From assembly GCF_017114985.1 (NCBI RefSeq), contig NZ_JABXKP010000054.1:1-64000 (forward strand): a stretch of 64,000 bases of DNA, read 5' to 3'. Of this stretch, positions 10,156 through 50,887 are shown one piece after another. Origin of the DNA: Nostoc sp. JL33. Its GTDB lineage: Bacteria; Cyanobacteriota; Cyanobacteriia; Cyanobacteriales; Nostocaceae. The translations under genes and the position numbers were made by a program. Within the stretch, counting starts at the first letter, position 1. Each line of letters starts with the position of its first letter. The notes beneath the pieces are model-generated. The model made no database searches. It was not told the origin of the DNA and saw only the letters and a program-made list of their open reading frames with translations.

Positions 10156-10452
10156 TTATTCTAGGTCAATCCCCTCAAATGCTTGCTCTAAAAGGACTCG
10201 GAGAATTTCAGCTTTTTTCCTGCCAGTGCGATTAGCCAGGTTAGTAAGTTTAGAGTGCATTTCTGGGGATAGATCCAAACTGACGCGAATGTGTTTTTCT
10301 CTTGGTGTAGATTGCTGAGTTAATTTCTCTAATAAATCATTAGATTGCTTCTCAGGCTTTTTAGCCGCGCCAGTCGTTTTTTTATTCGGTTCGTCTTCAG
10401 GAAAAATGAACTTAGCGGTATCATCGTCTAGCCTTTTTCGTTTAGTATTCAT
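10156..10452 (-). CDS. parB: ParB-like RHH partition partner
   Basis: 98 residues from the ATG at 10452, which overlaps the TGA of parA (ATGA), a classic coupled par operon. The N-terminal half is basic and disordered (KRKRLDDDTAKF, NKKTTGAAKKPEKQ). The C-terminal half, KHIRVSLDLSPEMHSKLTNL then TGRKKAEILRVLLEQAF, is a ribbon-helix-helix fold. Size and layout fit the small centromere-binding partner of type Ib partition systems, unrelated to chromosomal ParB. It probably binds the AT-rich repeats on either side of the operon and may repress it. Confidence 0.75.
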   Translation of the reverse strand: MNTKRKRLDDDTAKFIFPEDEPNKKTTGAAKKPEKQSNDLLEKLTQQSTPREKHIRVSLDLSPEMHSKLTNLANRTGRKKAEILRVLLEQAFEGIDLE

Positions 10453-11087
10453 TTCAGTAATCCCAATATCTCTTTGCACAATTGCTCAAATTCTTGAGCC
10501 GAATCTTCAGCTTTTTTCATTTCCCAAATGGTGCATTCCTGAGTAAAGCAATCCGCAATAGATTGTTTGCTGTGGATCGCAGTTTTGAGTAATTTAACGT
10601 CGGGAATTTGACTGAGCAATGATAATGCCTCCTCTTTGAGCCTCGTCCCCTTAGTGGCACGCGATAGAAACACTGCTGCTCTTGGCCGCCCTCCCCCAGT
10701 TATTTTTTGCGCTGATTTGATTAGCCTTATTGCCTCTGAAGCCGAATGCAGATCCAATCCAGTCGGCTGAATCGGCGTTACTGAAACATCCGACAAGCAC
10801 AAAATTGCTCTGGTGGATTCGCTGGTATTCGCCGCACCGTCCACAACTACAAACTGGAATTGTTCAGCAAGCTCTGGTAATCTCTCGATTAGCTCATTAG
10901 CGTCAGTAATTTTTGACGTAGGTATTTGGCTAGACAGCAGGGACATCCATGTTGCTCCACTGCTTTGTGGATCTGCATCGACAAAGTGGATTTTCTTGCG
11001 TTTGCGATGCAGCCAAGCGGCTAGATGCACTGCCCCCACTGTTTTTCCGCAGCCTCCCTTCTGATTGCAAAACGAAATAATGGGCAT
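10449..11087 (-). CDS. parA: ParA-family partition ATPase (locus 1)
   Basis: 212 residues, start ATG 11087. The deviant Walker A motif NQKGGCGKT is at residues 8-16, the Walker A' HFVDADPQSS at about 35-44 and Walker B FQFVVVDGAAN near residue 80. The length without an N-terminal HTH fits the small ParA of type Ib plasmid partition. It would drive ATP-dependent positioning of plasmid copies on the nucleoid through the RHH partner encoded next. Repeat arrays at 11088-11206 sit directly upstream and are the likely centromere and operator. Confidence 0.9.
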   Translation of the reverse strand: MPIISFCNQKGGCGKTVGAVHLAAWLHRKRKKIHFVDADPQSSGATWMSLLSSQIPTSKITDANELIERLPELAEQFQFVVVDGAANTSESTRAILCLSDVSVTPIQPTGLDLHSASEAIRLIKSAQKITGGGRPRAAVFLSRATKGTRLKEEALSLLSQIPDVKLLKTAIHSKQSIADCFTQECTIWEMKKAEDSAQEFEQLCKEILGLLK

Positions 11088-16157: not shown

Positions 16158-16506
16158 CTTTACTTTTGTAAATTAAGCTCTGAAATTAACTGTTAACAAT
16201 TAGACCTATTGCAAAAAAAATTTGTGGTACATGGCGGGCGATCGCTATGCATCCTCGCTTGAATGATCAGTGATGTCTACGACGGCAAGCTACGCTTTAG
16301 TTGTTATCGCTGCTCTCAAAAATTGGTAGAGTTGATAAGACTACCCAACAGCTTTGGGGAGTATCATCGGCAATGCCCATCTACAGAAAACGCTACGCAA
16401 ACAATTGGGACGAAATAGCGATTGCTCGTTTTCAGTTTCTTAGAGGAAACCCTTAACACCTAAAATACTGCTATGGTCAATCCCTAGAGGAAAAGTTAGA
16501 TTGAAC
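16158..16506. other. Intergenic repeats, no gene
   Basis: Contains another CCTCGCTTGAATGA / GATGTCTACGACGGCAAGC repeat at about 16250-16295, a HIP1 site, and TCTTAGAGGAAACC and CTAGAGGAAAAG segments; the last acts as ribosome-binding site for the next gene. Confidence 0.5.
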
Positions 16507-17185: not shown

Positions 17186-19087
17186 TCAAATTACTTTGGC
17201 CGCTACTTTACCTAATGCTGTTTCTAAACGAGTGGTAAATTCTGAAGGGCGATCGCAGGTCATGATCAACTGGTCAATTCCCCGTGTCATTGCAACATAC
17301 AATAGCCGCGCTTCTTCTTCTGCTGTGCCGTGTCCGTACTGGTCAGGCATATAACCAATACCAGGAATAAGCACCACTGGGAACTCTAGCCCTTTGCTGG
17401 AGTGCATGGTTATGAGTTTGATGCTTAACTCGGCTGGGTGATAGTTGCGGCTGTCACTGCTGCCGTTTACGCACTCTATTGGTATTTGGGCTTGTTGGAA
17501 GTCGTTGTAGATGCGTAGGCGTAGCCCGCCACAGGCATCGCCCATAAAATTGGAGCGGTAAATAATTGCTATTTCGTTCCAGGGGATATCTCGCTCGTGT
17601 AATTGTTGCACTCTATCGGCTAGGTAATTTACCTCATGCTGAAAAGTGGGGAGTTTAATTAAATCTGGTATTGCTCCCTGTCGTCCTGCACTAGCGGGTT
17701 CTAACAATACTACTTGGTCATCATCCCCGGTGGTAGGGGTCATCACATATGCAGCAAATTCATAGGCTACCCCTAACACCTGCTCTGTGTTGCGATAGTT
17801 GAGTTTAAAAATAGTGGTGCGTCCCTGTGCTTGAATGCCTACACTCTTAAAGCTAAATTTTTGACTACGTTCTCCTCCGTAAAGGTTTTGGGCATCATCA
17901 TAGAGGATAAGCAAAGAAGAATTGGTTTCGGGGTTGACCATCTGGGCAATTAACTTTAACCACTCTGGTTTAAAGTCGTGTCCCTCATCCAGCATGACAG
18001 CGCCATACGTGCCAGTAGGTATTAACTGGGCATCGACAGCTGTAATTACTCTTTGAACCAGTTCTTCTATATAAGCTTCACCTTGATACTCTCTAGAGTC
18101 GGGTCTGGGGATGTCATACTTTTTGAGTAAATCCATGCACCACCCATGAAAATGTCGTACCTTGATGCGACTGACTTTGTTTTTATCTTGGATAGTTTGC
18201 CGGAGCTTGGCAGCTAGGGAAACGTTGAAACATAGCACCAAAATTGGTTTGTTTCCAACTTGTGCAAGGTGTTGACAACGGTAGGCTAAAATCATGGTTT
18301 TTCCTGAACCAGCCACACCATGAATTACCCGATGTCCATCACCTAGACTCCGTGCCAACTGTTCCTGTTGCAAGTCCATAATTTTGAGAATGTCGGGGAT
18401 TTGCAGCTGCGGTGATTCTTCAGTGTCGGTTTCTAACTCAAGCAAAGATAACTGTTTGGGAGTAATGTGTAAATCTGGGAAGATGTGCCAACGGATTCTG
18501 TCTATTTGGCTGCTGGTGAGGGTCTTGCCAAATTGATATGCCGATAAATCCCAAATTCGTTGTTGAAATTCCCCTGCATCTGTTTTTGGGAGCATTTCAT
18601 CTTTGCAGATAACTAAGTGTTCCTCAAATACTGCGGGTAGTTCACTTTCATTGAATGCTTTGCGGGTGATGTTGGTGAATACGACCCCATAACCGTAGGG
18701 AATGACCAGCTTACCTTGATATTTACCTTCTTGCTGCACCAAGGCGGGGTCTTTTTCTAGCATCCTGTTCACTGCTAGGGCATAATCTCTGGCTTGTTGT
18801 AGTGGGTGTTTAACTTCCTTTATTCCATCTTCAGTAAGCAGTGTGAATGTGGAGGGGTTAATATTTTGAATAGTTTCTAACTTCCAGTCTTTCACCTCAA
18901 GAATGAACAAGCCCCGGCTAGGGTGCAGCACTATAAAATCTGGGTGCAGTTGGTTTCTACCTACTGGCACGTCATACCAAAGTAAATAATCATCTTCTAA
19001 TTTTTTCTCCAATCGCTGGGCTAACCTCGTTTCGCCAGGGGTCATCCGCTTTGAGCAACTATTGAATGAGGTAATTAGTGTGGCCAT
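17186..19087 (-). CDS. NERD-domain superfamily 1 (UvrD-like) helicase
   Basis: 633 residues, start ATG 19087. An N-terminal NERD nuclease-related domain (LHPDFIVLHPSRGLFILEVKDWKL, about residues 45-70, with the PD-(D/E)XK-type D and E-x-K) is fused to a UvrD-like helicase. Walker A GVAGSGKT lies near 256, a MLDEGHD Walker B near 365, LNYRNTEQV near 435 and TMHSSKGLEFPVVLI near 575, ending with AMTRGIDQLIM. Such fusions are common in defence islands. The coding sequence contains a small palindromic repeat (17510-17541) that appears inserted in frame. Its 3' end has a remnant copy at 14738-14802. Confidence 0.9.
   Translation of the reverse strand: MATLITSFNSCSKRMTPGETRLAQRLEKKLEDDYLLWYDVPVGRNQLHPDFIVLHPSRGLFILEVKDWKLETIQNINPSTFTLLTEDGIKEVKHPLQQARDYALAVNRMLEKDPALVQQEGKYQGKLVIPYGYGVVFTNITRKAFNESELPAVFEEHLVICKDEMLPKTDAGEFQQRIWDLSAYQFGKTLTSSQIDRIRWHIFPDLHITPKQLSLLELETDTEESPQLQIPDILKIMDLQQEQLARSLGDGHRVIHGVAGSGKTMILAYRCQHLAQVGNKPILVLCFNVSLAAKLRQTIQDKNKVSRIKVRHFHGWCMDLLKKYDIPRPDSREYQGEAYIEELVQRVITAVDAQLIPTGTYGAVMLDEGHDFKPEWLKLIAQMVNPETNSSLLILYDDAQNLYGGERSQKFSFKSVGIQAQGRTTIFKLNYRNTEQVLGVAYEFAAYVMTPTTGDDDQVVLLEPASAGRQGAIPDLIKLPTFQHEVNYLADRVQQLHERDIPWNEIAIIYRSNFMGDACGGLRLRIYNDFQQAQIPIECVNGSSDSRNYHPAELSIKLITMHSSKGLEFPVVLIPGIGYMPDQYGHGTAEEEARLLYVAMTRGIDQLIMTCDRPSEFTTRLETALGKVAAKVI
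17510..17541. repeat. Palindromic dispersed repeat inside the helicase coding sequence
   Basis: GATGCGTAGGCGTAGCCCGC followed by CACAGGCATCGC belongs to the intergenic palindromic family. In the helicase frame it adds MGDACGGLRLRIY where related UvrD-type proteins would be expected to run directly from the strand into the helix. Confidence 0.5.
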
Positions 19088-19115
19088 AGGAAGTGTAATT
19101 TGAGGTTTCCTCTAA

Positions 19116-19290
19116 GAGGTTGTTTGAAAAGTATTGGGCGAATATAATTCGCTACTACAGAAACTCTCGTCCACCTCCGTGGAAAGCATGAAAAATCAAG
19201 GTTTTTAACCCACGGAGGTGGGTAAAGTCTCGTGTAGCCGCGACTTCTAGTCGCCCGGCTAGTAATAAATTAGACTTTTCAAACATCCTC
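19116..19290. mobile_element. MITE-like element, 175 bp, with TAA target duplication
   Basis: The terminal inverted repeats are GAGGTTGTTTGAAAAGT at 19116-19132 and ACTTTTCAAACATCCTC at 19274-19290, pairing at 16 of 17. TAA flanks both ends (19113-19115, 19291-19293). Removing the element restores TTTCCTCTAAGAATGGGGAG, the dispersed repeat found elsewhere, so this is a clean insertion. An internal dyad (CCACCTCCGTGG ... CCACGGAGGTGG) is present and no ORF is carried. The 3-bp target and TIR style suggest mobilisation by an IS5-type transposase, which is inference. Confidence 0.8.
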
Positions 19291-19334: not shown

Positions 19335-20564
19335 TTAGTCCTCACTCTCCAACTGTTCAGGAGCATTTAGAGCATTTTCCATAATGTCAACAATTGAATT
19401 CTTGGAATCGTACAGCATAACTAAGTGATCTCTTGCTCTAGTCATGGCTGTGTAAATTCCTGCTTTTTCTTGAAAATCCTTATCTAGATCATCTGGGTAT
19501 TCATCAGCTTTATCTAGTCCAGCAATGATAACCGCATCAAATTCAACACCTTTTAAGGCATTCCAAGAGTCAACAATTACAAAAGGTCTATCCACCACAT
19601 TCATATCTCTGTCTGTAGAACTTTTGGGGGCATGATGTTCAATATTTAGCTTTGATAATTCTGCGCTAATTGCATTCTTTAGTTTCCAATTCTGTGGATG
19701 CACTAAAACACCAATTGAAGATTCTTTATGACTTGATAAGGCAAGTTTGACTTGCTCTGCAATTTTAACTGGTATCGCTTCATCAGAAATTTGCAATAAA
19801 GCTGGTTTAATATTTGAACTTCTAGAGTTTTTCTTTTTGGGTTGAATAATGTCGCCTATTCTACCTCCAGCTTGTTCTTTTTTAGAAACTTTCATATTGA
19901 CTTCTGATAATGCTCCAAGTATAAATTCCCAAGCCAATTCTAGAATTTCAGGGGAGTTTCTATAGTTAACATCAAATATTTGAGAACGCCCCACAACATC
20001 AATTCCCAGTTTTCGCCATGTCCAATCTTGTTTTCTTCTGTGAGATTGTCCATATACTGATTGAGTATTATCGTAGACAAAAAATAAAGATTTTGTATTA
20101 TCATCTAAAATTTCTAGTAAAGCAATAAACCACTCATCATAGAAATCTTGTGCTTCATCTACTAAAATAGCTTGATATTTTAAGTCTGAATTTTTAGCAA
20201 AATCTATAATTTGCGCTCTTAATTCATAATTATTATCAAATTTGTAATCATAATTTAAATTACGATAAGCCCAACTGTGAAAGGTATTGCAAGTTACTTC
20301 GTTGCTAATACCTTTCTCTCTTAGCTTTGATTTGAGCCATCCACTCATAAAACGGTTATAGCTGAGGATTAAAATATTATCAAATTCATTAATTATTTTT
20401 TCAACTCTATTTCTTAAAACTAAAGACTTACCAGAGCCAGCAATACCTCGAACAAGAGCGTGTCCTTTGGTATTCATGTTTCTGACTTTAGTTTGTTCTT
20501 GGTCTAAATCTTCTCTGAGTAACCTTTGATTAACGGTTTGTTGAAAATCAATCCATTGTCCCAT
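19335..20564 (-). CDS. Superfamily 1 DNA helicase (UvrD/Rep-like), third gene of the viperin operon
   Basis: 409 residues from ATG 20564, which has AAGGAG seven bases upstream; the longer frame to 20675 would overlap the viperin gene. Walker A GIAGSGKS is near residue 41, ILVDEAQDF near 133, YRNSPEILEL near 195 and a C-terminal IYTAMTRARDHLVMLYD near 375. A NALKGVEFDAVIIAGL segment is also typical. It is shorter than UvrD and lacks accessory subdomains. It follows the viperin gene by 85 bp on the same strand and is probably co-transcribed. Its role in that locus is not known. Confidence 0.85.
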   Translation of the reverse strand: MGQWIDFQQTVNQRLLREDLDQEQTKVRNMNTKGHALVRGIAGSGKSLVLRNRVEKIINEFDNILILSYNRFMSGWLKSKLREKGISNEVTCNTFHSWAYRNLNYDYKFDNNYELRAQIIDFAKNSDLKYQAILVDEAQDFYDEWFIALLEILDDNTKSLFFVYDNTQSVYGQSHRRKQDWTWRKLGIDVVGRSQIFDVNYRNSPEILELAWEFILGALSEVNMKVSKKEQAGGRIGDIIQPKKKNSRSSNIKPALLQISDEAIPVKIAEQVKLALSSHKESSIGVLVHPQNWKLKNAISAELSKLNIEHHAPKSSTDRDMNVVDRPFVIVDSWNALKGVEFDAVIIAGLDKADEYPDDLDKDFQEKAGIYTAMTRARDHLVMLYDSKNSIVDIMENALNAPEQLESED

Positions 20565-20649
20565 GATTTTTACTCCTTGACTTTTTTGGGTATCCCTGTT
20601 GTCAGTAATGAGGAAGTGCGCTAATCTTCGTCTGCAATTGGCGGTGCAA

Positions 20650-21483
20650 CTATTTCCAAGAGTAAATACCTCCACGATCCAAAAAAGTTTCTACATTCCA
20701 ACCGACTTGAGCTAGGGCAACATTTACACCCACTTCCAAAATTGGTGAACTATACAAATAACGCCCTCTTGTAGTGTTGTTGTAAAACTGCCCTTGTGGA
20801 TTGACCATTACATAGGAATCTTTCATCAAGTTGTTTGTCTCTGCGAGAAATCTGATTCCCTCATCTGAAAGGCTTTGGTGTCGTTCGACAAATTCTTGAA
20901 ACTGCTGTGGCGAGATTAGCAGATCCTCAACGCTACCATCATTTTGACCTTCCACTGGCAGCACTTGAAAGACCTTCCACCTTTCTGGACGCACCCGCCT
21001 TACAAAGGTTGACATATCTTCTTGGAAGTTAAGACGGGTGACTACTGTATTAAGTTTGACATGAATGCCACATCGATGTAGCTGATCAAACAAAGTAATT
21101 GAGCGTACTACATGATCCCCATTCCCCCGTCCCAACTGTTTTTGAACCATTTCCGAAGCAGAATCTACCGACAATGCGACCCAATCAATATCACCAGCGT
21201 GCTTTTCTAGTAATTCAGCCATTCGCGCACCATTGGTCACAATGCTTGTTACAAATCCCAAACGACGCGACTCAGCTATAAGTTCACCAATGTAAGGGTG
21301 CAGTGTTGGTTCTCCTCCAGCAAAGTTAATTTTTTCCGTCCCCGCCTCACGCAATAAGAAAAGAAGACGTTTAGCATCACTGAAACTTAAATATCCTTGG
21401 ACATCACGAAAGGTAGCAAAGCAAAATCGGCAATGATAATTGCATGGTTTCCACAAATGGAAATTTACAGATATTGGTCGCAT
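20650..21483 (-). CDS. Prokaryotic viperin (pVip), radical SAM antiviral ddhNTP synthase
   Basis: 277 residues, start ATG 21483. The radical-SAM cluster motif is CNYHCRFC (Cys 14, 18, 21), in the viperin context FHLWKPCNYHCRFCFATF. The SAM-binding INFAGGEPTLHP follows, with IVTNGARM and ALSVDSASE. The C-terminal block ERWKVFQVLPVEGQND and ILEVGVNVALAQ...FLDRGGIYSW is characteristic of prokaryotic viperins and distinguishes them from MoaA-like enzymes. Known pVips make 3'-deoxy-3',4'-didehydro nucleotides that terminate phage transcription. The adjacent nucleotide kinase is the expected partner. Which base is used cannot be told from sequence. Confidence 0.92.
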   Translation of the reverse strand: MRPISVNFHLWKPCNYHCRFCFATFRDVQGYLSFSDAKRLLFLLREAGTEKINFAGGEPTLHPYIGELIAESRRLGFVTSIVTNGARMAELLEKHAGDIDWVALSVDSASEMVQKQLGRGNGDHVVRSITLFDQLHRCGIHVKLNTVVTRLNFQEDMSTFVRRVRPERWKVFQVLPVEGQNDGSVEDLLISPQQFQEFVERHQSLSDEGIRFLAETNNLMKDSYVMVNPQGQFYNNTTRGRYLYSSPILEVGVNVALAQVGWNVETFLDRGGIYSWK

Positions 21484-21516
21484 GATAATATTTCTTGGTA
21501 AATTGAAAAGTTGAAG

Positions 21517-22152
21517 TTAGCTATTTAATGCAAAATCTGTAGACTGAATGATGGGTATATTTTGACCAATTCTGTGCAGTTCATAGCACAAAGTAGAATA
21601 AGCTTGCTCAGGGTCAGAATTAGTCGTATCAATCTCTAAAACTGGTATATCAACTAGGGAAAATATACGCTTATATGATTCAATAAGATTGTATTCAATA
21701 GAAACTTTATCCCCATACCATTGCATAGGAACTTCCTGACTTCGCTTGGCAAGACGCTGGCAAATTACAGGCTGAGAGGCCGTCACATAAACAATAACGT
21801 CAGGTAACAAAAATTTTTGTTCTGATTGCAATATAGGTAAATGCAAAGACAAGTCTTGTTTCATCAACAGGCTATGGTAAGCAAGAGTAGAAAACACATA
21901 TCTGTCAGCCACAACCCCTGAATAGTTCAACTTTAATCCATACTCATGGCTACGCATAAGGTTGCACAAAGTATAAAAATGAAACGTGGTGATTGGGGAA
22001 TGAGTCGCAGCTATTTGCTCTCGTAAAGAAATTAACTCAGGCGGTATGCTGCTGTAATAAGAAAAATTTTGTTGCTTGGCAAATAGCTCTGCCAAAGTAG
22101 TTTTCCCAGCCCCATCTAATCCTTCAAATACCAAAAAAGGAAACTGCTTCAT
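21517..22152 (-). CDS. Thymidylate-kinase-like nucleotide kinase partnered with viperin
   Basis: 211 residues. The P-loop FEGLDGAGKTTLAELFA is at residues 9-25, ADRYVFSTLAYHSLL gives the DRY-type substrate motif, and a lid-like RLAKRSQEV segment follows. The fold is that of dTMP kinases, but the protein is diverged and lies 33 bp upstream of pVip in the same orientation. Nucleotide kinases beside pVip genes are known to supply the nucleoside triphosphate substrate. It is the first gene of the operon; a palindrome (22168-22178) sits 16 bp before its start. Confidence 0.85.
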   Translation of the reverse strand: MKQFPFLVFEGLDGAGKTTLAELFAKQQNFSYYSSIPPELISLREQIAATHSPITTFHFYTLCNLMRSHEYGLKLNYSGVVADRYVFSTLAYHSLLMKQDLSLHLPILQSEQKFLLPDVIVYVTASQPVICQRLAKRSQEVPMQWYGDKVSIEYNLIESYKRIFSLVDIPVLEIDTTNSDPEQAYSTLCYELHRIGQNIPIIQSTDFALNS

Positions 22153-22178: not shown

Positions 22179-22323
22179 AATTCATAATTGTGTGATGTGA
22201 TTTAAGACTTTTATCCATAATCTATGCCATTAATCTTTACCTTGTTGGAGGTGGTTTTTTTTGAATAATTGGTTGGGGCGTAGCCCATCGCTTGGGGTTT
22301 CCTCTAAGAATTGGGAAGCGTTG

Positions 22324-22746
22324 CTATCCTCTCAATTCATGTACACGTTGCCATTCCTGTTGTGTAACCTTGTAGTTTGTAGTGTTTGGCTGTCGAATTA
22401 CCATCAGAGTTTTTAGCACAGGGTCTTGTTTTAAGTCTTCCCTTAGCAGTGGCTTATCTAACAATTTGCTGGTAAAGCGAATTTTGGCGCAAGGTTTAGC
22501 ACCAATACGGCTGGTATCAATCCAGTAGCCAATGTCAGGGGGGTTAGTGATAATCTTGGGCGGCTCAATAATCTCTGCGATCGCATATATCCCCGCCTTA
22601 TCTCCAGATTTCCAAATCAGCACTCCATCACCAGGAGCCATGTCTTTGGCGTAGCGCGTTGTCAGCCAGGGCATCTGCTCAAAGTCGCGGATGCCGTCTA
22701 TGATGCGGTAATACTTGGGGTTGCCTTGAAATAGCCAGTAGGTCAT
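22324..22746 (-). CDS. EVE-domain protein
   Basis: 140 residues. The opening MTYWLFQGNPKYYRIIDGI, the central W..R.A..M.PGDGVLIWKSG string and GIYAIAEII are classic EVE (PUA-like) features. The fold's binding pocket recognises modified bases in DNA or RNA. EVE proteins are frequent in modification-dependent restriction and defence islands, and here it stands between the viperin operon and the methyltransferase/helicase operon. It encodes no visible effector domain of its own. Confidence 0.88.
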   Translation of the reverse strand: MTYWLFQGNPKYYRIIDGIRDFEQMPWLTTRYAKDMAPGDGVLIWKSGDKAGIYAIAEIIEPPKIITNPPDIGYWIDTSRIGAKPCAKIRFTSKLLDKPLLREDLKQDPVLKTLMVIRQPNTTNYKVTQQEWQRVHELRG

Positions 22747-22860: not shown

Positions 22861-25800
22861 TTATGCCCTCAATAAAAGTGCAGCTAAATAAACTTTGATA
22901 CTGGTAGATTTAATCCCTTCATTTAGAATCAGATTTAATCTGTCTGTATCTTGTACTAATTGAATAACGAAATCCTCATTATCTAAACCTGCCTTATTAC
23001 CATCGGTATACTCTTTTAAGAGTTTTTGTACAAACTTATTTTCTCGCTGAGAATTGAGCTTTTTGAGTGTACTTCTGACTGCTCCACGGTCTAAACCCTC
23101 TGGCAAGCTATCAAACATACTTAGCCGACGCTGAATTTGGGTAATGCGCTCAGATGTGACACTGATATTTTCTAAAGTTTCTGGTTGTTCTAGCTCTGCA
23201 CTGCGTTGTTGCTTTAATTTCACCAGTTCGTTGTAAATTGATTGAGCGCATGATAGTAAATACTTTGTAGAAAATATATTGCTGGCTACTGGAGTTTTGA
23301 TAGCAGTAGCGATCGCTAAACCATAACCATCTTTTTCTCCTGTTCGGTCATTCCAGAATAGGGTTTGCTGTTTGTCTGTAATTGGTTCGCCATTGGGGCC
23401 AAAATATTGCACTGTTAACGCTAGTAACCCAGTTGGTTCATCTAGTTCATTTGTACGCCCTACAGCAATGGGGTTAGCTTGATAGTCTTCACCTAATTTT
23501 TTTAGCAGTTCACTCAATTCTTCACTGTGTAAAATTTCATTCTGGGTATAAATGTCACGGTTGGTTTCCTGTTTTTTATAGGCATCTTCTTGTAAATTGC
23601 CCTGTTCCATTTTTCTGGCTTTGACTAAGCTTTGAAGAAAGTCAATATATCCTGGTAAAATCTCATCATCAAATAGGGTATCACCATAGATAGAAGCCCC
23701 TAATGTGTTGACACTGGAAATGGTAGGGATGTTGGGGTTAGGCTCAATACTAGCGATGTCTCCATCCTTTTGGGCTAAGTCTCCTACCAATTTTTTATGC
23801 AGATTTGATAGGCGAGAGGCTTGGCGTAAAAGTTGGCTTTCACTATTGGCATAATAAACATAAATGTTCTCAGCTTTATGTTGTTTTGGTCGGTCAATCC
23901 GTCCAATGCGCTGCTCTAAAATCATGGGATTCCAAGGCAGATCAATATTAATCAAGTAATCAGCATCTTGTAGATTTTGACCCACTGATAGAGTTTCTGA
24001 ACCAATTAATACTGCAATTTCTTCTTCTGGTTTGGGGCGTTCTGTGAGATTTTTACAAGTAGCATCTGGGGCAAACAGTCTAAATATTTCTTGGCGATTT
24101 AAAGTAACTGGACTACGTTTGTGTTGGAGTGCGTGACCTGGACTTACTTTTTGAGCTTGGTCTGAATTGTTGGGGTAATACAGTTTTGTAGAACCAATCA
24201 GCATCCCAATACCTTTAGATGCGATCGCACTGTCACGAGCCATATAACGGTAGTAATCAATTACGGTGTCACTGAACGTAGAAATTAGCAGTACCTTATG
24301 ACCTTGACTTACCAGTTCTCTTACTTTTTGGGTAACTTGCTTGCGTTTGTGGTCAACAAGAAATTCATCTACTAATAGGTTTTGAATCTGTTCTAGCTGA
24401 TGTAAGTCGCCTTCACAATCAGTTAGCATTCGGTTATAAACTGATTGAGCGGTGATTGGGTCTTTTTGCAAAGCATCAGTAACTTTCTTAATAGAACTAA
24501 GCAGCTGGTGACGCTTTTGCTTTTCTTGTTCCGGCTCAGTTTCTTCGTTTTCATCTTCCTCCTCTTCATCTTCACCCCAACTTTCACGGTCGAAGTCATC
24601 TTGTTTATCTTTCTTATCTGATTCAAAATTGTAGTGAATCAGCAAAAATTCTTTCAGCCCATCAGCATCTGGAGAAACCGATTCTAGACGTTGCTGCATT
24701 TGCCTAATACGATTACCAAAGTTTTTAATAGTCCGATTGAGGGCATACATACTGGATTCAGCCCGTTGCAAGAAAAATCGGCGTTGGTTAGCTAGTAAGC
24801 TTCGCTGTTCAACATTACCTGTTAAATAGCGAATAGGGTCAGCAAAGGGAATGAAAAGACTGGTTTCAAATTGGGTGAAAATCTGCTCAAGTGCCTGCTC
24901 GGTACTAAGTTCAAAATGCACAGGTAGCCATTCTGCTACCCGCTTGGCATACAAGTTTAAATCTGGGGTGGCTTCTCGCAACATTTGTCTAGTGCGCTGA
25001 AGAAACAGTTCCCGGTAGGTGCGGCGAAACAGTTCAGTGTTATCTGTAAAATTTTCAACCCCAATTTCCCGGTTTTGAAACCATTGGGCAACTTCTGCGG
25101 GAAACTTTAAATCATTGAATCCTTCAGGACGACTGATAAAGGGTGAGAGAATGTTATAAATATCTTCCCGGCGATTGTTCCAAGGTGTAGCGGTCAACAG
25201 TAGAAAGTAACGTTGCCAAGCAGACTTGCGATCGCTTTCTTGAATTGCTGCACAGGTTTTGTGAATACGGTTTTTATAATTGCGGATTCCTTCATGAGCT
25301 TCATCGATAATAACTAAGTCGGGGCCACGATAACGATTGAAGTCCGCCAGGAAATTACTACCTTTGCGGCTCATCAGGTTTTTATTGTAAAGCTCGTAAT
25401 CGTTAGATTTAAAGCCCAATTCTGCCATTTCTCGCTCCCAGTTGGGGTAGAGTTTCTTAGCAGCGATGATCGCAATCTTAGCTTGACCGTTCTGCTGGCG
25501 ATACAACCAGGAGACAGTAGCCGCTAGCCGAGTTTTTCCCAAACCTACAGCATCAGCACAGACGGCAACACCAAAATCTTGCATGACTCTTAGGCAATGT
25601 TGCGCTCCAGACTTTTGATGCTCAAACAAGATGTCTTGATTTAACAGCTCATCCAATAAATCACTACGTTCAACCCGGAACTGACGGGGGCGCTGCTGTG
25701 CCAACCAGTAGAGAAAATCGTTAGGTGTGCCGTGATTGCCAGCTAAAATTATTTCGACAGCTTGTTTAAACCCTTCAATCTCACTGAAATCTGGTATTTC

Positions 25801-27114
25801 TAGGGATTGGCTGACTGCTGGGGGATTTTCGGGTAAGTTGTGATAAGTGCCTTCGGTGGTTGTAACTTTGAATTCGGTTAACTTTGTCGGCGGATGTTCT
25901 GGGTCTACCTCAACTTGACCAATAATCCGTTCAGAATCTTGGCTATCAATGGTGATTTTAACCAATTCATCATCTACAACCTCAATGCTTTCTATTTTGT
26001 CTAAATTTTGACCTGTGATTTCAACTTGGGTGGTTTCTCCAGGGGCAAACTCATCAGGATTGATAGATTCAATAACTGGTTCTTTTAATTGGGCACGGCG
26101 ATCGCGTTCCGTCAACACCTGCTGTAAAAACTCTTGGGTTAAGTCAAAGGTGATGTCATCTCGCTGCCACTCAGCATCAAATTGACCAATACTTTCAAAT
26201 ATGGCTTCTGCATCTAAACGAGAATCCCAAGAATAAAGAAAAGTTACACTCTCAGCATTTTTAGAATGTGCTGCACGGGTGAAATTATCTGAGCCTTCAT
26301 GCAGAATGTGGTTTTCTAACTGGTCGCTCAGTATGCCAGTTTTTTTGTGATATATAGCTCGTCCTGATTCCATTTTGACGAGTTTAATTTGCAAAAAATT
26401 GAGGCGAACTAACTCTGCCAAAATTTCTGTCCCACTAAAGGCACTATCTTCTAAACCCTTAAGGAATTCAGTTAGGGTAAGATGAGCAAATTGGGCGCGG
26501 TAGTTAGGGTCTTGTAATTTCTCCAGTTCTTGGACATCAGCCTGCTTGGTGAATCCCTGCCAGTCCATCAATAGGCGAATTTGACCTTCAGTTTGCAGAA
26601 TTGAAGCGAGAGGTTCTTCATATAGTTTCAGCACACCACTATCAAAGTAAGCTGTAGAACGGCGATAAATTTGGGTGCGTTCTAGGGCAGAGCCGATGAA
26701 GACATTGTACTTATCTAGCTGTTCAGGCAAATTGAATCTACGAAGACGACCTTTAATTTCTAAAAAGCTGCCTGCAAGTAAAGCTTTTTCTTTGGTTACA
26801 CTTTCTTTATGAAGGAATTTTTCAATAACATTTAAATTACTAATTCGCAGTAGAGAGGTACTAGGTACATTTCCATCTTTGATGGGTGTATATTCAAAAA
26901 CCTTAGCGCTTTTTGGGTCAATTCGTAGTATTTTATAAGTCGCTTGTTTACCACCAATACCTAAGAACTTCACAACTGTTTTTAACAACCTGTCAGCATC
27001 GCGGTGCTTGAAGACAAGCCAGTATTGATTGTCAACGCCTTTGATGGGATTACCTTGGAGTAGGTAATAGGGGCGTTGTTTGCGAATTAGGTCTTGGATA
27101 AAGTTTTCAAGCAT
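22861..27114 (-). CDS. PLD-nuclease / SNF2-type helicase fusion, restriction-like effector
   Basis: 1417 residues, start ATG 27114, 11 bp after the methyltransferase stop. In order: an N-terminal region; a helicase-associated PLD nuclease motif (IYHKKTGILSD then EGSDNFTRAA, near 255-290); an IPT/TIG-like beta segment (INPDEFAPGETTQVEITGQN, about 345-365 onward); a SNF2-type motor with DAVGLGKTRLA near 522, VIIDEAHEG near 606 and LLTATPWNN. A very acidic insert lies near 855. Helicase C (IGSETLSVGQNLQDADYLIN, ILEQRIGRIDRPKQ) is near 1055-1085. With the methyltransferase it forms a two-component modification/translocation-nuclease system, reminiscent of parts of DISARM and type I systems but not a clear match. 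Confidence 0.88.
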   Translation of the reverse strand: MLENFIQDLIRKQRPYYLLQGNPIKGVDNQYWLVFKHRDADRLLKTVVKFLGIGGKQATYKILRIDPKSAKVFEYTPIKDGNVPSTSLLRISNLNVIEKFLHKESVTKEKALLAGSFLEIKGRLRRFNLPEQLDKYNVFIGSALERTQIYRRSTAYFDSGVLKLYEEPLASILQTEGQIRLLMDWQGFTKQADVQELEKLQDPNYRAQFAHLTLTEFLKGLEDSAFSGTEILAELVRLNFLQIKLVKMESGRAIYHKKTGILSDQLENHILHEGSDNFTRAAHSKNAESVTFLYSWDSRLDAEAIFESIGQFDAEWQRDDITFDLTQEFLQQVLTERDRRAQLKEPVIESINPDEFAPGETTQVEITGQNLDKIESIEVVDDELVKITIDSQDSERIIGQVEVDPEHPPTKLTEFKVTTTEGTYHNLPENPPAVSQSLEIPDFSEIEGFKQAVEIILAGNHGTPNDFLYWLAQQRPRQFRVERSDLLDELLNQDILFEHQKSGAQHCLRVMQDFGVAVCADAVGLGKTRLAATVSWLYRQQNGQAKIAIIAAKKLYPNWEREMAELGFKSNDYELYNKNLMSRKGSNFLADFNRYRGPDLVIIDEAHEGIRNYKNRIHKTCAAIQESDRKSAWQRYFLLLTATPWNNRREDIYNILSPFISRPEGFNDLKFPAEVAQWFQNREIGVENFTDNTELFRRTYRELFLQRTRQMLREATPDLNLYAKRVAEWLPVHFELSTEQALEQIFTQFETSLFIPFADPIRYLTGNVEQRSLLANQRRFFLQRAESSMYALNRTIKNFGNRIRQMQQRLESVSPDADGLKEFLLIHYNFESDKKDKQDDFDRESWGEDEEEEDENEETEPEQEKQKRHQLLSSIKKVTDALQKDPITAQSVYNRMLTDCEGDLHQLEQIQNLLVDEFLVDHKRKQVTQKVRELVSQGHKVLLISTFSDTVIDYYRYMARDSAIASKGIGMLIGSTKLYYPNNSDQAQKVSPGHALQHKRSPVTLNRQEIFRLFAPDATCKNLTERPKPEEEIAVLIGSETLSVGQNLQDADYLINIDLPWNPMILEQRIGRIDRPKQHKAENIYVYYANSESQLLRQASRLSNLHKKLVGDLAQKDGDIASIEPNPNIPTISSVNTLGASIYGDTLFDDEILPGYIDFLQSLVKARKMEQGNLQEDAYKKQETNRDIYTQNEILHSEELSELLKKLGEDYQANPIAVGRTNELDEPTGLLALTVQYFGPNGEPITDKQQTLFWNDRTGEKDGYGLAIATAIKTPVASNIFSTKYLLSCAQSIYNELVKLKQQRSAELEQPETLENISVTSERITQIQRRLSMFDSLPEGLDRGAVRSTLKKLNSQRENKFVQKLLKEYTDGNKAGLDNEDFVIQLVQDTDRLNLILNEGIKSTSIKVYLAALLLRA

Positions 27115-27124
27115 GGTTAATAAC

Positions 27125-30100
27125 TCACTGAATAGGCCAAGCTGGAATTACTGCGTCAATCTTTGCCATTAGTTCAATGGTTTCTTTGAGGGCTACAACA
27201 ATACGCTGATAATGTTGGATATCGTCAGAAGTGAGAATGCGTCCTTTACGGTCTTTGAGCCATTTTTGGCAGACTTGATAACCACCTACGTAAAATTCCC
27301 AAATTTCTTTTGGTACGCCAGTAAATTTGTCTCCTTTTTTGTTGATGATGACAGTGCCTTCGTTATATTTTGGGTGTCCTGCATCAACTATTTGATTGCC
27401 ACCATTTTCTTGAAACTGTGTGATTAGGTTGTTTAATTTAGGTGATTTCATTAAGTGGAGTGCTACTAATTCTTCACCATATTCTGATAGTTGAGAGAAG
27501 AGTTGATTATTACTGGTGAGAGGAACACGGGGGAAGTCGATTTTGAGGAATTCGGCGTAACGGGTGCGGTAGGTGGGAGAGTGGAAGATGGCGTAGATGT
27601 AGTAGAAGATGGTTTCTGGTGTGGGGGTGTAGCCGAGTTTTGCGGTGATGTCTTTGAGGAATTCGGGTGAAAGATTGGAACGGACTGATTGCTGTAGTTC
27701 TTTAGGGTTGCTTGAGTCAGGGTAGATATATAAAGGAGCAAGCTGCATAGCTCCTTTATTACTGTAAAAAGCTCGATTATCTGCTGTTTGGGAAGTTACT
27801 AAGAAATGATTATAGTTACCTTGTATAGCAACCTGACGCATAAACATTAAACCTAAGTTATGTTCCACAAGCAGGTTTTGCATAACTTCGTTTTTTGGTC
27901 TATCTACTACATCCGGATGATGGTAGTAATGTCTGAGGTCAAAGGGTCTGTATAAACATTTAATCAAATATTGTCTCCAGTTAGAATTTGTAGCTAAAGA
28001 TTTCCGCTTTTTATTTAATTTCCAATCTGATGCATCAGAAAGGTCATAAGCTGTTGCAATTTCTGTATCTGAAATATCTAAATTTCTAAAATCTTCTATA
28101 CGCTTTTGCAGTGATGAGAGTTCAAAATCGAATACAAAATGGTCACGATGGGTTTTTACTCCTGTAGAGTTAAGTGCCATAATATCTGTAATTTTATAAT
28201 CCCGTTCATATTCTGGTAGCAATGCAGTATCTTGTGGGGAAAAGAGAGAAAAGGGTATTTGCGGCTGTACAGAAATCCATTTAGTACTTATCACATCATT
28301 TTTCTTTAACCATTCATACTTTGCTTCTCTAACACCCCATATATTGGCATGACAAATATTACTTGGCTTTTTATTATCAATTTGAGCAAAAATACCAATT
28401 GCTACACCCTGCTGAATATCAAAAACATTTTCATCTTTTGAACCATCAAGTGCTTTTTCTTTTTTCTTAGAGTTACCATGTACATCAAGAGTGTAAATAT
28501 TATTAAAACTTTGCATCAGACTTTGACGCATACCCCGAAAAGTCGGATTATCTAGATACCCATGATTTGTAATAAAACTAAGAATTCCATACCCTGTCTG
28601 CTCAATCCGCCACTGAGCAAAGCGGATAAATTTAACGTAATCATCTAGTAAAAGTTTTGGGTTTTGTTCTTTAATTTCATCATTGGGGTAGTAACTATCT
28701 CGAACTAGGTTAGTAGCCCATTCACTCTTATTTGCAGAGTTTACAGAATAAGGTGGGTTTCCTAAAACCACCATAATAGGTTGATTTTGTTTAACTTTTA
28801 ATGCTGCTTCACCTTCTGCTGCAATAAATTCCTCAAAAGGAATTTCTGGTTTATCAGGTGCAGCTTGTTCTAGAGCATTTGTGAGATAAACATTTAACCT
28901 CTTACTCGTATCAAACTTATACCCCGTTTCTTGCAAAAATAACCCCAACTTCAGATGCGCGATCGCATAAGGAGCCATTAACAACTCAAACCCGAATATT
29001 CTTGGTAATAACCGCTCTTTGACATAACCAGACCAAGATTTATCTTCTAATCCTTCTGTTAGTGCTTCTGGAGACTCTTGAAAACGTTGATAAATAAGTT
29101 GACAAATCCATAATAAAAACGTCCCTGTACCACAAGCAGGGTCAAGAATCATTACCTCTGGATCTGCCAAACCCAAGGGTTTATTAAACTTTTCCTTCAC
29201 TAAAATATCTACAGAACGCACCATGTAAGAAACTACAGGTTCTGGCGTATAATAAACACCCCGGCGTTCTCGCATCTGTGACTTGTAGGCTGTCAAAAAA
29301 TCCTCATAGAACCGGATAACAATATCTTCCCGGTTCATCTTCAGTTGAAAATCCGAGAGAATCGCATCCATCTTGGCAGCGCGGAGGATGCCAAAGATAT
29401 CTGCGATCGCACCAATTAACTCATCACCCAATTCTTCTGGTTGACGCTCTGACACATCCTGAAACAGCTTACGAAGAAACGGGTTGGTTTCTGGTAATTG
29501 TTGCCATGCAGATTCACGGTCAAAATGCGTTTCCTTCTCACGTCCCTCCCGCTTATCTTTTACATGGCTGAATACCTTTGCTGTAAACAGTGCATAAGCA
29601 ATGGTTTGGGCGTAGATATCTGCAAAACTGTAATCCTTCTCATTCTCTGAAGTCAATTGCAGTGTGGGTAATAGTTCCCGTTGAAAACTCTTTAGCAGGT
29701 GGTGTAAATACCCATCAGCTTTTTCTTTCTCATAGACTTGGGGAATGACCTGCTCAATTCGACGGGCAGCTTCAGCCAACAACTGCGCCAGTTCTTTCGC
29801 CGTCTTAATCGGTTCATAGAAAACCCACTCCACCAAGGGAACCGAACTTAGTCCCTTAGCAGCAATCGGCAGTTCCCCTTGTTTTAAACGGTTTAACCGT
29901 GCTATTAGTTGCGGTTCATTCCAATCAAAAGTCTGGATTTGCCGTTGGCGTAGTCCACCTTCACTTGGCAGCACTAACGGCACTCGACCTAAAGCTTCTT
30001 TAGTTGGCAACAGCAAATACATCACTGGTTGCTGTTCAGCAACTCGATTTGTGTAATGCCCGTAAATTTCTTGTTGTTGCTCTTTTGAAGTCAAAAATCT

Positions 30101-30328
30101 TTTGATTTCTTGGTCTGTTGCTCCTGATAGTTCCTCGTAAAAGCCAACAGCAACTGGGCAAGTTTCCTCAGCTTCCTCCTCATCGACACCAGGACGCAAA
30201 TACCAGAACCGAGAACCTTGAGGGTCACGCTCTTTCACTGGATATTCCAACAGCTGCCGTAGCGCTTCAACGCGATTTATATCTGTGCCACTTATCACAT
30301 CCTGCAACTGTTCTTTAGTGAAAACCAT
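27125..30328 (-). CDS. Adenine-specific DNA methyltransferase (type ISP-like N6-MTase)
   Basis: 1067 residues, start ATG 30328. SAM motif I, LDPACGTGTFLLWICQ, lies near residue 395, preceded by RGVYYTPEPVVSYMVRSV, and motif IV VVLGNPPYSVNSANKS near 525; together these identify an N6-adenine MTase. The long C-terminal region (LYRPFDLRHYYHHPDVVDRP, ...YYIYAIFHSPTYRTRYAEFL, VPKEIWEFYVGGYQVCQKWL) matches the target-recognition part of type ISP and related restriction-modification enzymes. No helicase is fused here; it is supplied by the next gene. It would mark self DNA while the PLD-SNF2 protein acts on unmodified DNA. The upstream XRE gene is the likely control element. Confidence 0.9.
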   Translation of the reverse strand: MVFTKEQLQDVISGTDINRVEALRQLLEYPVKERDPQGSRFWYLRPGVDEEEAEETCPVAVGFYEELSGATDQEIKRFLTSKEQQQEIYGHYTNRVAEQQPVMYLLLPTKEALGRVPLVLPSEGGLRQRQIQTFDWNEPQLIARLNRLKQGELPIAAKGLSSVPLVEWVFYEPIKTAKELAQLLAEAARRIEQVIPQVYEKEKADGYLHHLLKSFQRELLPTLQLTSENEKDYSFADIYAQTIAYALFTAKVFSHVKDKREGREKETHFDRESAWQQLPETNPFLRKLFQDVSERQPEELGDELIGAIADIFGILRAAKMDAILSDFQLKMNREDIVIRFYEDFLTAYKSQMRERRGVYYTPEPVVSYMVRSVDILVKEKFNKPLGLADPEVMILDPACGTGTFLLWICQLIYQRFQESPEALTEGLEDKSWSGYVKERLLPRIFGFELLMAPYAIAHLKLGLFLQETGYKFDTSKRLNVYLTNALEQAAPDKPEIPFEEFIAAEGEAALKVKQNQPIMVVLGNPPYSVNSANKSEWATNLVRDSYYPNDEIKEQNPKLLLDDYVKFIRFAQWRIEQTGYGILSFITNHGYLDNPTFRGMRQSLMQSFNNIYTLDVHGNSKKKEKALDGSKDENVFDIQQGVAIGIFAQIDNKKPSNICHANIWGVREAKYEWLKKNDVISTKWISVQPQIPFSLFSPQDTALLPEYERDYKITDIMALNSTGVKTHRDHFVFDFELSSLQKRIEDFRNLDISDTEIATAYDLSDASDWKLNKKRKSLATNSNWRQYLIKCLYRPFDLRHYYHHPDVVDRPKNEVMQNLLVEHNLGLMFMRQVAIQGNYNHFLVTSQTADNRAFYSNKGAMQLAPLYIYPDSSNPKELQQSVRSNLSPEFLKDITAKLGYTPTPETIFYYIYAIFHSPTYRTRYAEFLKIDFPRVPLTSNNQLFSQLSEYGEELVALHLMKSPKLNNLITQFQENGGNQIVDAGHPKYNEGTVIINKKGDKFTGVPKEIWEFYVGGYQVCQKWLKDRKGRILTSDDIQHYQRIVVALKETIELMAKIDAVIPAWPIQ

Positions 30329-32133: not shown

Positions 32134-33468
32134 CTAAGTCTGTATTGCACTTTTGGCAAACTTCTGAAGGATTCTAGAGCTAGGATGATCAGCCAGAGAG
32201 ACAAGCTTGTTTGCTAAAGCGACAGGAATCAGAGAGTTGTCGTACATATCGCACTTTAGCTTCTCAACGTTGGTTAAAATTGCACTCAAGTTTTGGAAGT
32301 CTGCCTCTTTGGGATTTGTCATATTTCTTGAAGTTGGTAAAGAAACAACGTACATCCCACCCGCCAAGGTCTTAAAAATCAGCTTGTTGCTATAGTAAGT
32401 TGTAGAACCATAAGGTCTTGTTGGGTCAGCTTTGCCAGGAAGAATGTACTTGTAGATGTAATCATTATTCAGAATTAGGACAGTTCCATTTGCAAGCTTT
32501 TCAGAGATTTCATCGGCGTGTTCTACAAAGGCTCCACTCTTTTCCAATCCAGCTAGGTATAAGTTGTGATGTTTAAAGAGAAAGTTGACAAGCGATCGCA
32601 TCGGACGGTGCATATTTGCTGTTTGTCCAAAAAAGGCAAGTGGGCCATCCTTAACAAACAATATTTCCCCCAGCAAAGCTGGCTTCATCTTAAGAACAAC
32701 TCGAATGAGGTGAACTAAGATCATCTGCTCTAAGGTAGTTATCAAATATCCTAAAATACCGCCAGCACCTAATTCTTCATCAATAGCTTCATGTAGCCGG
32801 AATACATCTGTTAGAAAAATATCAGTGCTGCAATGATTACAGGAAAAGGTATGGTCTTTTGTCATTTCTCCCAGATTAAGGGGAATACCTGTACTTCCAC
32901 AAACTGGACAACTTGCTAAGTTCCAAGTTGGTAAACTTACATCATATTCCTGAAAGATAAACCATCTTAGTGTTGCAATCAATTCTTCATTGTCCACCTT
33001 CTGGCAGAAAAAGTTATGAATAGTTCTACGTACTGAGTTTAGAAGTGTACTTTCATTTTTAAATTGGATATTGCGAACAGGCAGAGTTAGTTTTAAACGT
33101 TGAATCTGCTTTAACTTCGCCATATCATCTGGGTCTATGAAAGGCTGTTTACCAAGTCCATCAAGATCATCAATGCTAAAAATGAGCGCCCCGATTTGAC
33201 AAAAGCAGACAGTTGAAGATGGGAAACCGGTTTGTACAGACACTTCACTGTATCCACCATCAATAGCGATAATATTGCGGATCGGATTTTTTACTACAGG
33301 TTCATAGGAAAAGTTAAGGCAGTCGTAAATAGTTACTTCATCTGCTGATTTAGGGAGATTACATTGACTAAGAAACTCCTGTAATGATTCATCATTAATT
33401 ATATGACTATGTGCAGACTTACTGGCATACTCATTAGGTCGCCGTCCACGCTTGCTTGTATATCCCAT
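32134..33468 (-). CDS. nurA: NurA-domain nuclease with zinc-finger insertion
   Basis: 444 residues. NurA signatures: IIAIDGGYSEVSV near residue 67, FVKDGPLAFFGQ near 270, a YLAGLEKSGAFVEHAD string and late motifs. Between them CPVCGSTGIPL and FSCNHCSTDIF (about 186-212) form a four-cysteine zinc ribbon not present in archaeal NurA. The gene starts 16 bp after the HerA-like gene, so the pair is an operon. NurA 5'-3' nucleases work with HerA hexameric translocases. In bacteria such pairs occur in defence islands, which fits here. The acidic active site is presumed from motif conservation. Confidence 0.85.
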   Translation of the reverse strand: MGYTSKRGRRPNEYASKSAHSHIINDESLQEFLSQCNLPKSADEVTIYDCLNFSYEPVVKNPIRNIIAIDGGYSEVSVQTGFPSSTVCFCQIGALIFSIDDLDGLGKQPFIDPDDMAKLKQIQRLKLTLPVRNIQFKNESTLLNSVRRTIHNFFCQKVDNEELIATLRWFIFQEYDVSLPTWNLASCPVCGSTGIPLNLGEMTKDHTFSCNHCSTDIFLTDVFRLHEAIDEELGAGGILGYLITTLEQMILVHLIRVVLKMKPALLGEILFVKDGPLAFFGQTANMHRPMRSLVNFLFKHHNLYLAGLEKSGAFVEHADEISEKLANGTVLILNNDYIYKYILPGKADPTRPYGSTTYYSNKLIFKTLAGGMYVVSLPTSRNMTNPKEADFQNLSAILTNVEKLKCDMYDNSLIPVALANKLVSLADHPSSRILQKFAKSAIQT

Positions 33469-33483
33469 ATACTACTTGCTTTC

Positions 33484-44096: not shown

Positions 44097-45026
44097 TTAA
44101 ACCCGTGGCAAGTGCAAAGCACTACTGTCTCCAGGGCGAATGTGAATGTATCCTGCCGTTGTGGAAATATCGGCGTGGCCCATAGTTTGCTGGAGCAACG
44201 GGATAGGCGTACCCCTCTCAGCATTGTGCGTAGCGTGACTATGCCTGAGCCAGTGACAACTAACTTTCTCCATCAGCCTGGCCCTTTCTGCTGCATCCTT
44301 AATTATTGGATCAACATTTTGACGATGGATCGGCTTATTTTTCCCGTTGCGGCTCTTGAAGACATAGGCATCTTTCGGCGCGTCTCCTCTGTAATTTATC
44401 AATTCCTGCCACAGATATTCCGGCAGTAAGATGTGACGGGACTTATCCCCCTTCCCCACAACGGTAATTTGTCCGGTGAGATTGCGTGGGGTAAAGTCCT
44501 TCCACCTTAGTCCGACTAGCTCCGACACCCGCAACCCAGCCACGTATAAAAGCTTCAATATCAACAAATCTCTAATTTGTTGACCTTTATAACGATACTC
44601 AGCCCGTTCTGTCAGCCGAATCATCAAAGCGATATCAGTTAAAGTCAGAACTTTCTCATGCAATCGCTGGTCAAGCTTCTTTAACTTAATCGCAGCACCG
44701 GGGTTTACCTTGATATAACCCGTCTTGTAAGCAAAGGAAAGCAGACTTTTCACAGATGCCATATAGGTCTTAATGGTAGGCGCTGCCAATCCCCGATTAT
44801 GCAAATGTTCAGAAAACTCCACCATATCCTCGACAGTCGTGTGAGCGATCGCCTTCCCTACCCCCGCCAAAAATCCAGTAAACTGCGCCGCATACCGCAA
44901 ATAACACTTTTGGGTACTTTGAGGCTTATCGTGCAGCCACAGTTGAACTAAGCGCTGCTGGGCATCAACCGGCGCTAAATGGGATAATTGCTTACGTCTT
45001 GCCTTGACTACGACTACTGGTGTCAT
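44097..45026 (-). CDS. Tyrosine recombinase (XerC/XerD-like integrase)
   Basis: 309 residues from ATG 45026 (a longer start at 45044 exists). An N-terminal SAM-like core-binding domain (STQKCYLRYAAQFTGFL, PTIKTYMASVKSLLSFAY) precedes the catalytic domain with VAGLRVSELVGLRWKD (first Arg), GKGDKSRHILLP (Lys), CHWLRHSHATH (H-x-x-R), QTMGHADISTTAGYIHI (His and nucleophilic Tyr). All five catalytic residues are present. Length fits Xer-type recombinases. It lies 560 bp from the first of six dif-like 28-bp sites; it is the obvious candidate to act on them and to resolve plasmid dimers. That link is inference. Confidence 0.92.
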   Translation of the reverse strand: MTPVVVVKARRKQLSHLAPVDAQQRLVQLWLHDKPQSTQKCYLRYAAQFTGFLAGVGKAIAHTTVEDMVEFSEHLHNRGLAAPTIKTYMASVKSLLSFAYKTGYIKVNPGAAIKLKKLDQRLHEKVLTLTDIALMIRLTERAEYRYKGQQIRDLLILKLLYVAGLRVSELVGLRWKDFTPRNLTGQITVVGKGDKSRHILLPEYLWQELINYRGDAPKDAYVFKSRNGKNKPIHRQNVDPIIKDAAERARLMEKVSCHWLRHSHATHNAERGTPIPLLQQTMGHADISTTAGYIHIRPGDSSALHLPRV

Positions 45027-45044
45027 AATTATCGCGGATATCAA

Positions 45045-50877: not shown

Positions 50878-50887
50878 GACAACACCG

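Follow-up and report, generated by a model that had tools for sequence, protein, structure and literature searches.

Is a helicase gene that follows a prokaryotic viperin (pVip) and its nucleotide kinase a working part of the viperin system, or has it only come to travel with the pair? The question is raised by a locus of Nostoc sp. JL33, within a stretch of 64,000 nucleotides (the window) that comprises bases 1-64000 of an 80,575-base contig; the genome, 7.1 Mb in 106 contigs, falls into one genus group with Nostoc sp. UHCC 0926 and Nostoc sp. ATCC 53789. Three open reading frames (ORFs), encoding a kinase, a pVip and a superfamily 1 (SF1) helicase, were found on the minus strand of the window at the positions given in a preliminary description of this DNA. 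We consider it likely that the kinase and the pVip are an antiviral pair residing in a defence island, on a contig that is probably of plasmid type, and that the helicase joined them once, either as an accessory or as a fellow traveller.

The kinase-pVip pair

The middle ORF (20650-21483, minus strand) encodes a putative radical S-adenosylmethionine (SAM) nucleotide dehydratase of 277 residues. It scores 300 bits with the NCBIfam viperin model NF038283, above the curated cut-off of 180, and 71 bits with the MoaA model, far below that model's cut-off of 284. It also matches the PADLOC model "Viperins associated with kinases" (5e-97) and Pfam Radical_SAM (6.7e-20). Its CNYHCRFC stretch represents a CxxxCxxC motif, in which C14, C18 and C21 are invariant, together with 24 further columns, among 19 aligned viperins. 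Nine solved sequences match it at E 1e-20 or better, and both "Viperin" 6b4c (1.5e-54) and RSAD2 6q2p (9.5e-52) are among the nine best; five of the nine bear the names viperin, viperin-like or RSAD2, and the other four, labelled simply as radical SAM core protein, align like the named viperins where alignments were shown. The gene is thus predicted to encode a prokaryotic viperin, nearer to viperins than to MoaA, and the preliminary description, which had called it a pVip and had pointed to placement with MoaA-like enzymes as the outcome that would overturn this, is borne out by the model scores, the solved viperins and the side of the tree on which the protein falls (see below). That it is instead some other radical SAM enzyme, MoaA-like or peptide-maturase-like, is barely credible: in its favour are the shared radical SAM fold, seen in the Radical_SAM match, and the 71 bits with MoaA, whereas the viperin model is well over its cut-off, MoaA is far under its own, and most of the solved matches carry viperin names. 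A MoaA-like identity was therefore rejected on the scores and the solved-sequence matches.

Our pVip tree of 27 rows gave long-branch warnings, holds no MoaA row and leaves out the incomplete pVip frames of loci L019, L022 and L081. One split in it, supported at 97/100, groups the window clade with the solved chains 9dfw and 9dfu, L129 (Thiodictyon), L130 (archaeal) and L020 and L021 (metagenome-assembled genome); the opposite side comprises L131-L136, all six from plasmids, and the cyanobacterial L023, L024 and L082. TIGR04278, which we take to be the animal-type viperin model, gives 195 bits for the window pVip, 211 for L078, 185 for L077, 147-164 for four others and only 83-108 for L023, L131 and L134. 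The window pVip appears to lean to the eukaryotic type, and from this leaning ddhCTP, the 3'-deoxy-3',4'-didehydro (ddh) form of CTP, is our first guess at its product. Published placements of such proteins conflict: a passage of PMC11291487 puts the pVips of Anabaena and Planktothricoides within an Asgard-eukaryote clade, and one of PMC10732462 assigns the Anabaena cylindrica pVip to the bacterial clade, where its neighbours are viperins of green algae that are regarded as transferred.

Upstream of the pVip gene, and separated from it by 33 nt, lies the gene for a kinase of 211 residues (21517-22152, minus strand), of VakA type and with a predicted thymidylate/deoxynucleoside-kinase fold. It matches PADLOC VakA (1.5e-55), Pfam Thymidylate_kin (4.2e-14) and dNK (6.2e-10) and the PDB entry 8puu (4e-6), and carries the P-loop GLDGAGKTT. 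It had been put forward as the known partner of viperin, with which both the VakA match and its adjacency to the pVip agree. In each of the 10 loci examined that have a pVip of 73% identity or more, a kinase gene stands directly 5' of the pVip gene. These are the six helicase-linked loci described below, that of A. cylindrica PCC 7122 (L128) and the near-identical L078-L080; kinase and pVip therefore constitute a conserved unit. In vertebrates, too, viperin adjoins a thymidylate-kinase-like nucleotide kinase (RSAD2-CMPK2), a likeness that holds at the level of fold class, whereas organisation and regulation differ. The pair in the window is one already described, both members being modelled in PADLOC. 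Like known pVip-VakA pairs (PADLOC; NF038283), it matches both models, with the kinase first and the pVip second; unlike them, it is adjoined by a lineage-specific SF1 helicase, and its pVip appears closer to the eukaryotic type than do several of the other pVips tested.

The PCC 7122 locus offers a close comparison. Its pVip, which was included in none of our trees and may be the A. cylindrica pVip of the published ones, is 77.6% identical to that of the window over 237 residues and has the same kinase upstream. The locus differs in that an insertion sequence divides the pVip gene and in that the 16 kb read gave no match to the helicase. The interruption of this plasmid-borne gene, at L128:8001-10252, is by an ISL3 transposase gene, with the rest of the protein encoded beyond it.

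By homology, pVip would use SAM and a 4Fe-4S cluster to convert a nucleoside triphosphate to its ddh form, and the ddh-nucleotide would terminate the RNA chains of phages. The most likely role of the kinase is to supply pVip with phosphorylated nucleotide.

The adjoining helicase and its family

The third ORF (19335-20564, minus strand) encodes a compact SF1 (UvrD-like) helicase of 409 residues, with matches to Pfam UvrD-helicase (8e-16) and UvrD_C (4.7e-11). Given the E-values obtained, the predicted identities of the three genes are not due to chance. The helicase ORF had been listed with a GTG start at 20675, overlapping the end of the pVip gene. We prefer ATG 20564, because it is preceded by a Shine-Dalgarno-like AGGAG, because close homologues begin at the same MGQW/MSQW and because the RefSeq helicase of UHCC 0926, 94% identical, is annotated from the same start. 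A gap of 85 nt (20565-20649) then separates pVip and helicase. A crude scan of low power (in all, 13 promoter-like sites against 10.5 from shuffles, and four terminator-like sites against 3.0) found no promoter- or terminator-like site in this gap, and the helicase may be co-transcribed with the pair.

Across 16 of the 28 family members, the truncated copy of L047 being excluded, the regions GIAGSGKS, DEAQDF, NTQSVYGQ, ALKGVEFD and YTAMTRARD are conserved; we presume that they serve as the usual SF1 motifs. The window helicase shares these motor core motifs with GajB, NERD-UvrD (C3a187), HelD and UvrD/PcrA, but is only 409 residues long. Gabija GajB was ruled out, the PADLOC GajB models matching weakly (best 1.1e-20) and no OLD-family GajA gene being present among the window neighbours scanned with Pfam. 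HelD, a larger protein with RNA-polymerase-binding arms, and UvrD/PcrA were likewise ruled out by scores far under their cut-offs (49 bits against 419 for HelD). An AlphaFold model built from an alignment of four close sequences had a mean predicted local distance difference test score of 43.7 and was left unused.

The family was searched for in cyanobacterial genomes with E-value thresholds of 1e-40 for the helicase, 1e-35 for pVip and 1e-80 for the NERD-UvrD protein encoded downstream (NERD, nuclease-related domain). Of 386 genomes drawn from the phylum, 11 carry the helicase and 7 carry pVip; of 388 drawn from the order, 26 carry the helicase and 16 carry pVip. The helicase genomes number 28 when each is counted once. 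In six of these 28, helicase gene and kinase-pVip are neighbours on one strand; the six are that of the window, Nostoc sp. UHCC 0926 (pn2), Nostoc sp. ATCC 53789 (pNsp_a), Anabaena sp. 4-3, Anabaena sp. UHCC 0187 and Sphaerospermopsis kisseleviana NIES-73 (plasmid1). The other 22 have no relative of pVip, kinase, EVE-domain protein or NERD-UvrD in the 9-20 kb read around the helicase, and their neighbours are mixed; the 10 proteins scanned with Pfam, from seven of the 22 loci, include PutA, PPK2 and further proteins of metabolic or unknown kind. The family is thus not confined to pVip loci. Nor is the helicase a regular component of pVip systems, since it is adjacent in six of the 16 pVip genomes among the 388 searched, two of the other ten loci lying on contigs shorter than 7 kb. 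In four of those ten genomes (G002, G494, G415 and G511) the helicase occurs at another site, whereas among genomes that lack pVip it occurs in 16 of 372 (Fisher p 0.0009); we attach little weight to this value because the four come from two genera. The near-identical L078-L080 have the kinase and a related pVip with no helicase next door.

Beyond the cyanobacteria, 10 plasmid records with a pVip were listed; in none of the eight inspected does a gene annotated as encoding an SF1 helicase adjoin pVip, although many neighbours there are hypothetical proteins, which were not scanned. A phage or viral origin of either gene was not supported: neither gene was found in 50,697 phage records at thresholds of 1e-15 for pVip and 1e-20 for the helicase. 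In viral contigs a method confined to close relatives gave nine pattern matches, none of them related to pVip, and there were at least 11 distant helicases of 22-29% identity. In a partial survey of the pVip literature, from which no absence from print is claimed, we met no link to this helicase.

Two unlinked members have neighbours of interest. At L083:621-4878 the helicase gene lies just downstream of that of a prokaryotic Argonaute (PAZ_3 2e-26), on the same strand and with one small gene between, and the predicted Argonaute is a second defence-type neighbour for the family. At L040:9117-13602 another lies near a divergent pair encoding an AAA_21 ATPase and a DUF3226 protein, which looks OLD/AbiEii-like.

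Gene order among the linked loci takes two forms. The window, UHCC 0926 and Anabaena 4-3 have kinase-pVip-helicase-NERD-UvrD on a single strand, and ATCC 53789 has kinase-pVip-helicase, the helicase being truncated and followed by an ISLre2 transposase gene, with NERD-UvrD on another contig. UHCC 0187 and NIES-73 have helicase-kinase-pVip-NERD-UvrD, again on a single strand, NERD-UvrD being truncated in NIES-73. The six linked helicases form one clade (99/99), so that one recruitment suffices. The preliminary description had made the helicase the third gene of the operon, and had held that a promoter of its own and unrelated neighbours elsewhere would count against this. The common strand and the gap fit the claim; unrelated neighbours are indeed the rule in the family (22 of 28), but not in the linked clade, where all six stand beside kinase-pVip.

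Ratios of nonsynonymous to synonymous substitution rates (dN/dS) were 0.09-0.20 for the helicase (10 pairs from five intact copies, the truncated L047 helicase being excluded), 0.15-0.47 for the kinase and 0.11-0.32 for pVip; NERD-UvrD of L017 (truncated) and of L047 (none at the locus) was also left out. The helicase is under purifying selection in the five intact copies. Between L028 and L017, identity is 95.7% for pVip, 87.6% for the kinase and 83.1% for the helicase, and between L025 and L017 it is 88.5% for the helicase and 79.8% for pVip. Approximately unbiased tests were run on trees of 12 of the 32 helicase rows (the six linked, six of the 22 others and none of the four NERD-UvrD outgroup rows) and of 11 of the 20 pVip rows. 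With the helicase, a clade of the four loci having the first gene order was rejected (p 0.037) and L028+L017 was not (p 0.094). With pVip, L025+L017 was rejected (5e-6) and neither L025+L017+L028 (p 0.095) nor the first-order clade (p 0.086) was; the latter is absent from the best pVip tree too. One pVip tree groups L025 with L028-L017 (81/81), and the pVip trees disagree on the place of L025. These comparisons are at most suggestive of a helicase history separate from that of pVip.

Neighbouring genes and mobile context

Along the minus strand of the window, the order of transcription is EVE-domain protein, kinase, pVip, SF1 helicase and NERD-UvrD protein. The first, of 140 residues (22324-22746, minus; Pfam EVE 5.8e-20), has relatives upstream of the cassette in L025 and L026 too. 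The last (17186-19087, minus; 633 residues) combines NERD (Pfam 1.5e-13) with a UvrD helicase (UvrD_C 5e-24; PADLOC C3a187 1.8e-256). NERD-UvrD relatives occur in 36 of the 388 genomes, 31 without pVip and five with it, and were therefore rejected as a regular part of viperin systems; NERD-UvrD is probably an independent gene. Upstream of these five, the defence island has genes for an SNF2-like helicase (22861-27114, minus; Pfam Helicase_C 1.7e-9, PADLOC PbeA and DpdE models) and a type ISP/IIG restriction-modification enzyme (27125-30328, minus; Pfam Type_ISP_C 3.8e-93, PADLOC REase_MTase_IIG 2.8e-221). Genes for a NurA-domain protein and, next after it, a HerA-type (DUF87) helicase (32134-35508) are likewise defence-island-like, and a Z1-domain protein (50804-53089) near a PLD-like and helicase protein (54469-57267) may mark another defence locus. 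The short repeat TTCTTAGAGGAAACC has three copies in the 64 kb at no more than one mismatch (16437-16451, 19104-19118 and 22296-22310), with 0 expected from shuffles; all are intergenic around the pVip cassette, and similar words lie upstream of cassette genes in related loci.

In all three linked genomes with finished records (UHCC 0926, ATCC 53789 and NIES-73) the cassette is on a plasmid; pANACY.03 of PCC 7122 is a fourth plasmid locus, but one found in a plasmid-only search. The window contig is probably of plasmid type as well. It encodes a ParA/VirC1-like ATPase (10449-11087) and a tyrosine integrase (44097-45044), which fits a plasmid or other mobile element.

Other pVips have other neighbours, among them, in other cyanobacteria, Zorya type I genes. 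At L027:9577-15112, and all on one strand, come the pVip gene, a gene for a 116-residue protein with no Pfam or PADLOC match, and then Zorya type I genes (ZorA 1.3e-233, ZorB 1.4e-75, ZorC 4e-168). In L078-L080 (L078:9801-18450) homologues of the 116-residue and Zorya proteins lie 2.6-2.8 kb downstream of kinase-pVip, one of them, the ZorB of L080, having itself been scanned; L077 has the 116-residue gene and part of ZorA at the contig end. On two Pseudoalteromonas plasmids (L131:5974-8246 and L132:5974-8237) a DUF4145 gene overlaps the end of the pVip gene by 4 nt, with VakA upstream in L131. A passage of PMC10865869 describes hicA or relE toxin genes adjoining some pVips and proposes a helper role for them, and on that account a changing neighbour of pVip is not unusual. 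The window resembles those loci in that a further gene adjoins pVip in part of the family, but the genes there encode toxin RNases and the one here an SF1 motor.

The role of the helicase

We read the helicase as a compact, presumably ATP-dependent SF1 motor of a cyanobacterial family that usually lives away from pVip; it would have joined the cassette once and been carried along with it since, be it as an accessory or simply as a passenger, and it may add a function to the pair. Several points weigh against our reading of the locus as a whole. Among the genomes listed for the window's family, six have both pVip and helicase, 28 have neither and none has one only, and travelling along would by itself explain neither this co-occurrence nor an adjacency kept through a change of gene order. 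The passages cited from PMC11291487 and PMC10732462 disagree on the clade of such cyanobacterial pVips, and ddhCTP as the product is a guess drawn solely from phylogeny. The Fisher value for the co-occurrence (7e-7, same genomes) overstates the case, because the genomes are related, the counts cover listed genomes and joint transfer of the whole cassette is possible.

It is a real, if doubtful, possibility that the helicase functions as the third part of a viperin variant found in Nostocales. By removing polymerases (of host or phage) or RNA-DNA hybrids that have stalled at ddh ends, it could lessen self-harm or deny rescue to phage transcription. Its direct adjacency on the same strand in six loci and two gene orders, its low dN/dS and its complete co-occurrence with pVip among the genomes listed for the window's family all argue for such a role, and if the histories of helicase and pVip do differ, one gene would have been exchanged while adjacency was kept. 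The tree conflict is weak, however (p 0.094 and p 0.086, with L025 joining L028-L017 at 81/81), and passage of the cassette as one piece could explain the co-occurrence. Moreover, 22 of the 28 family members live away from pVip, the related VakA-paired pVips of L078-L080 lack an adjacent helicase, and the gene is truncated in ATCC 53789 and without a match at the PCC 7122 locus. The 2021 work of Bernheim is said to have found that pVip alone protects E. coli, which also counts against a necessary third part. A complete three-part Nostocales system, in which a near-eukaryotic kinase-viperin pair is served by a dedicated SF1 helicase that handles ddh-ended polymerases or transcripts, be it for self-protection or for finishing stalled phage transcription, we judge unlikely. 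It is very unlikely that helicase and NERD-UvrD instead make up a two-gene defence system of their own, which came to lie next to kinase-pVip. The two genes are near each other and both intact in four loci, their motor domains are distantly alike (~25% identity), and NERD+UvrD is kept in PADLOC as the candidate C3a187; yet the helicase is found in only seven of the 36 NERD-UvrD genomes, five of these seven being pVip-linked, and loci with the second gene order have kinase-pVip between helicase and NERD-UvrD.

The kinase-pVip pair of Nostoc sp. JL33 represents a well-documented addition to a known type of defence. To our knowledge, there is no answer as yet to how bacteria escape harm from chain-terminating nucleotides of their own making, and natural loci in which the helicase is whole, truncated or missing offer a direct genetic test of this question. 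A cyanobacterial pVip clade that is often plasmid-borne and has a thymidylate-kinase-like partner also bears on the origin of viperin-kinase pairs.

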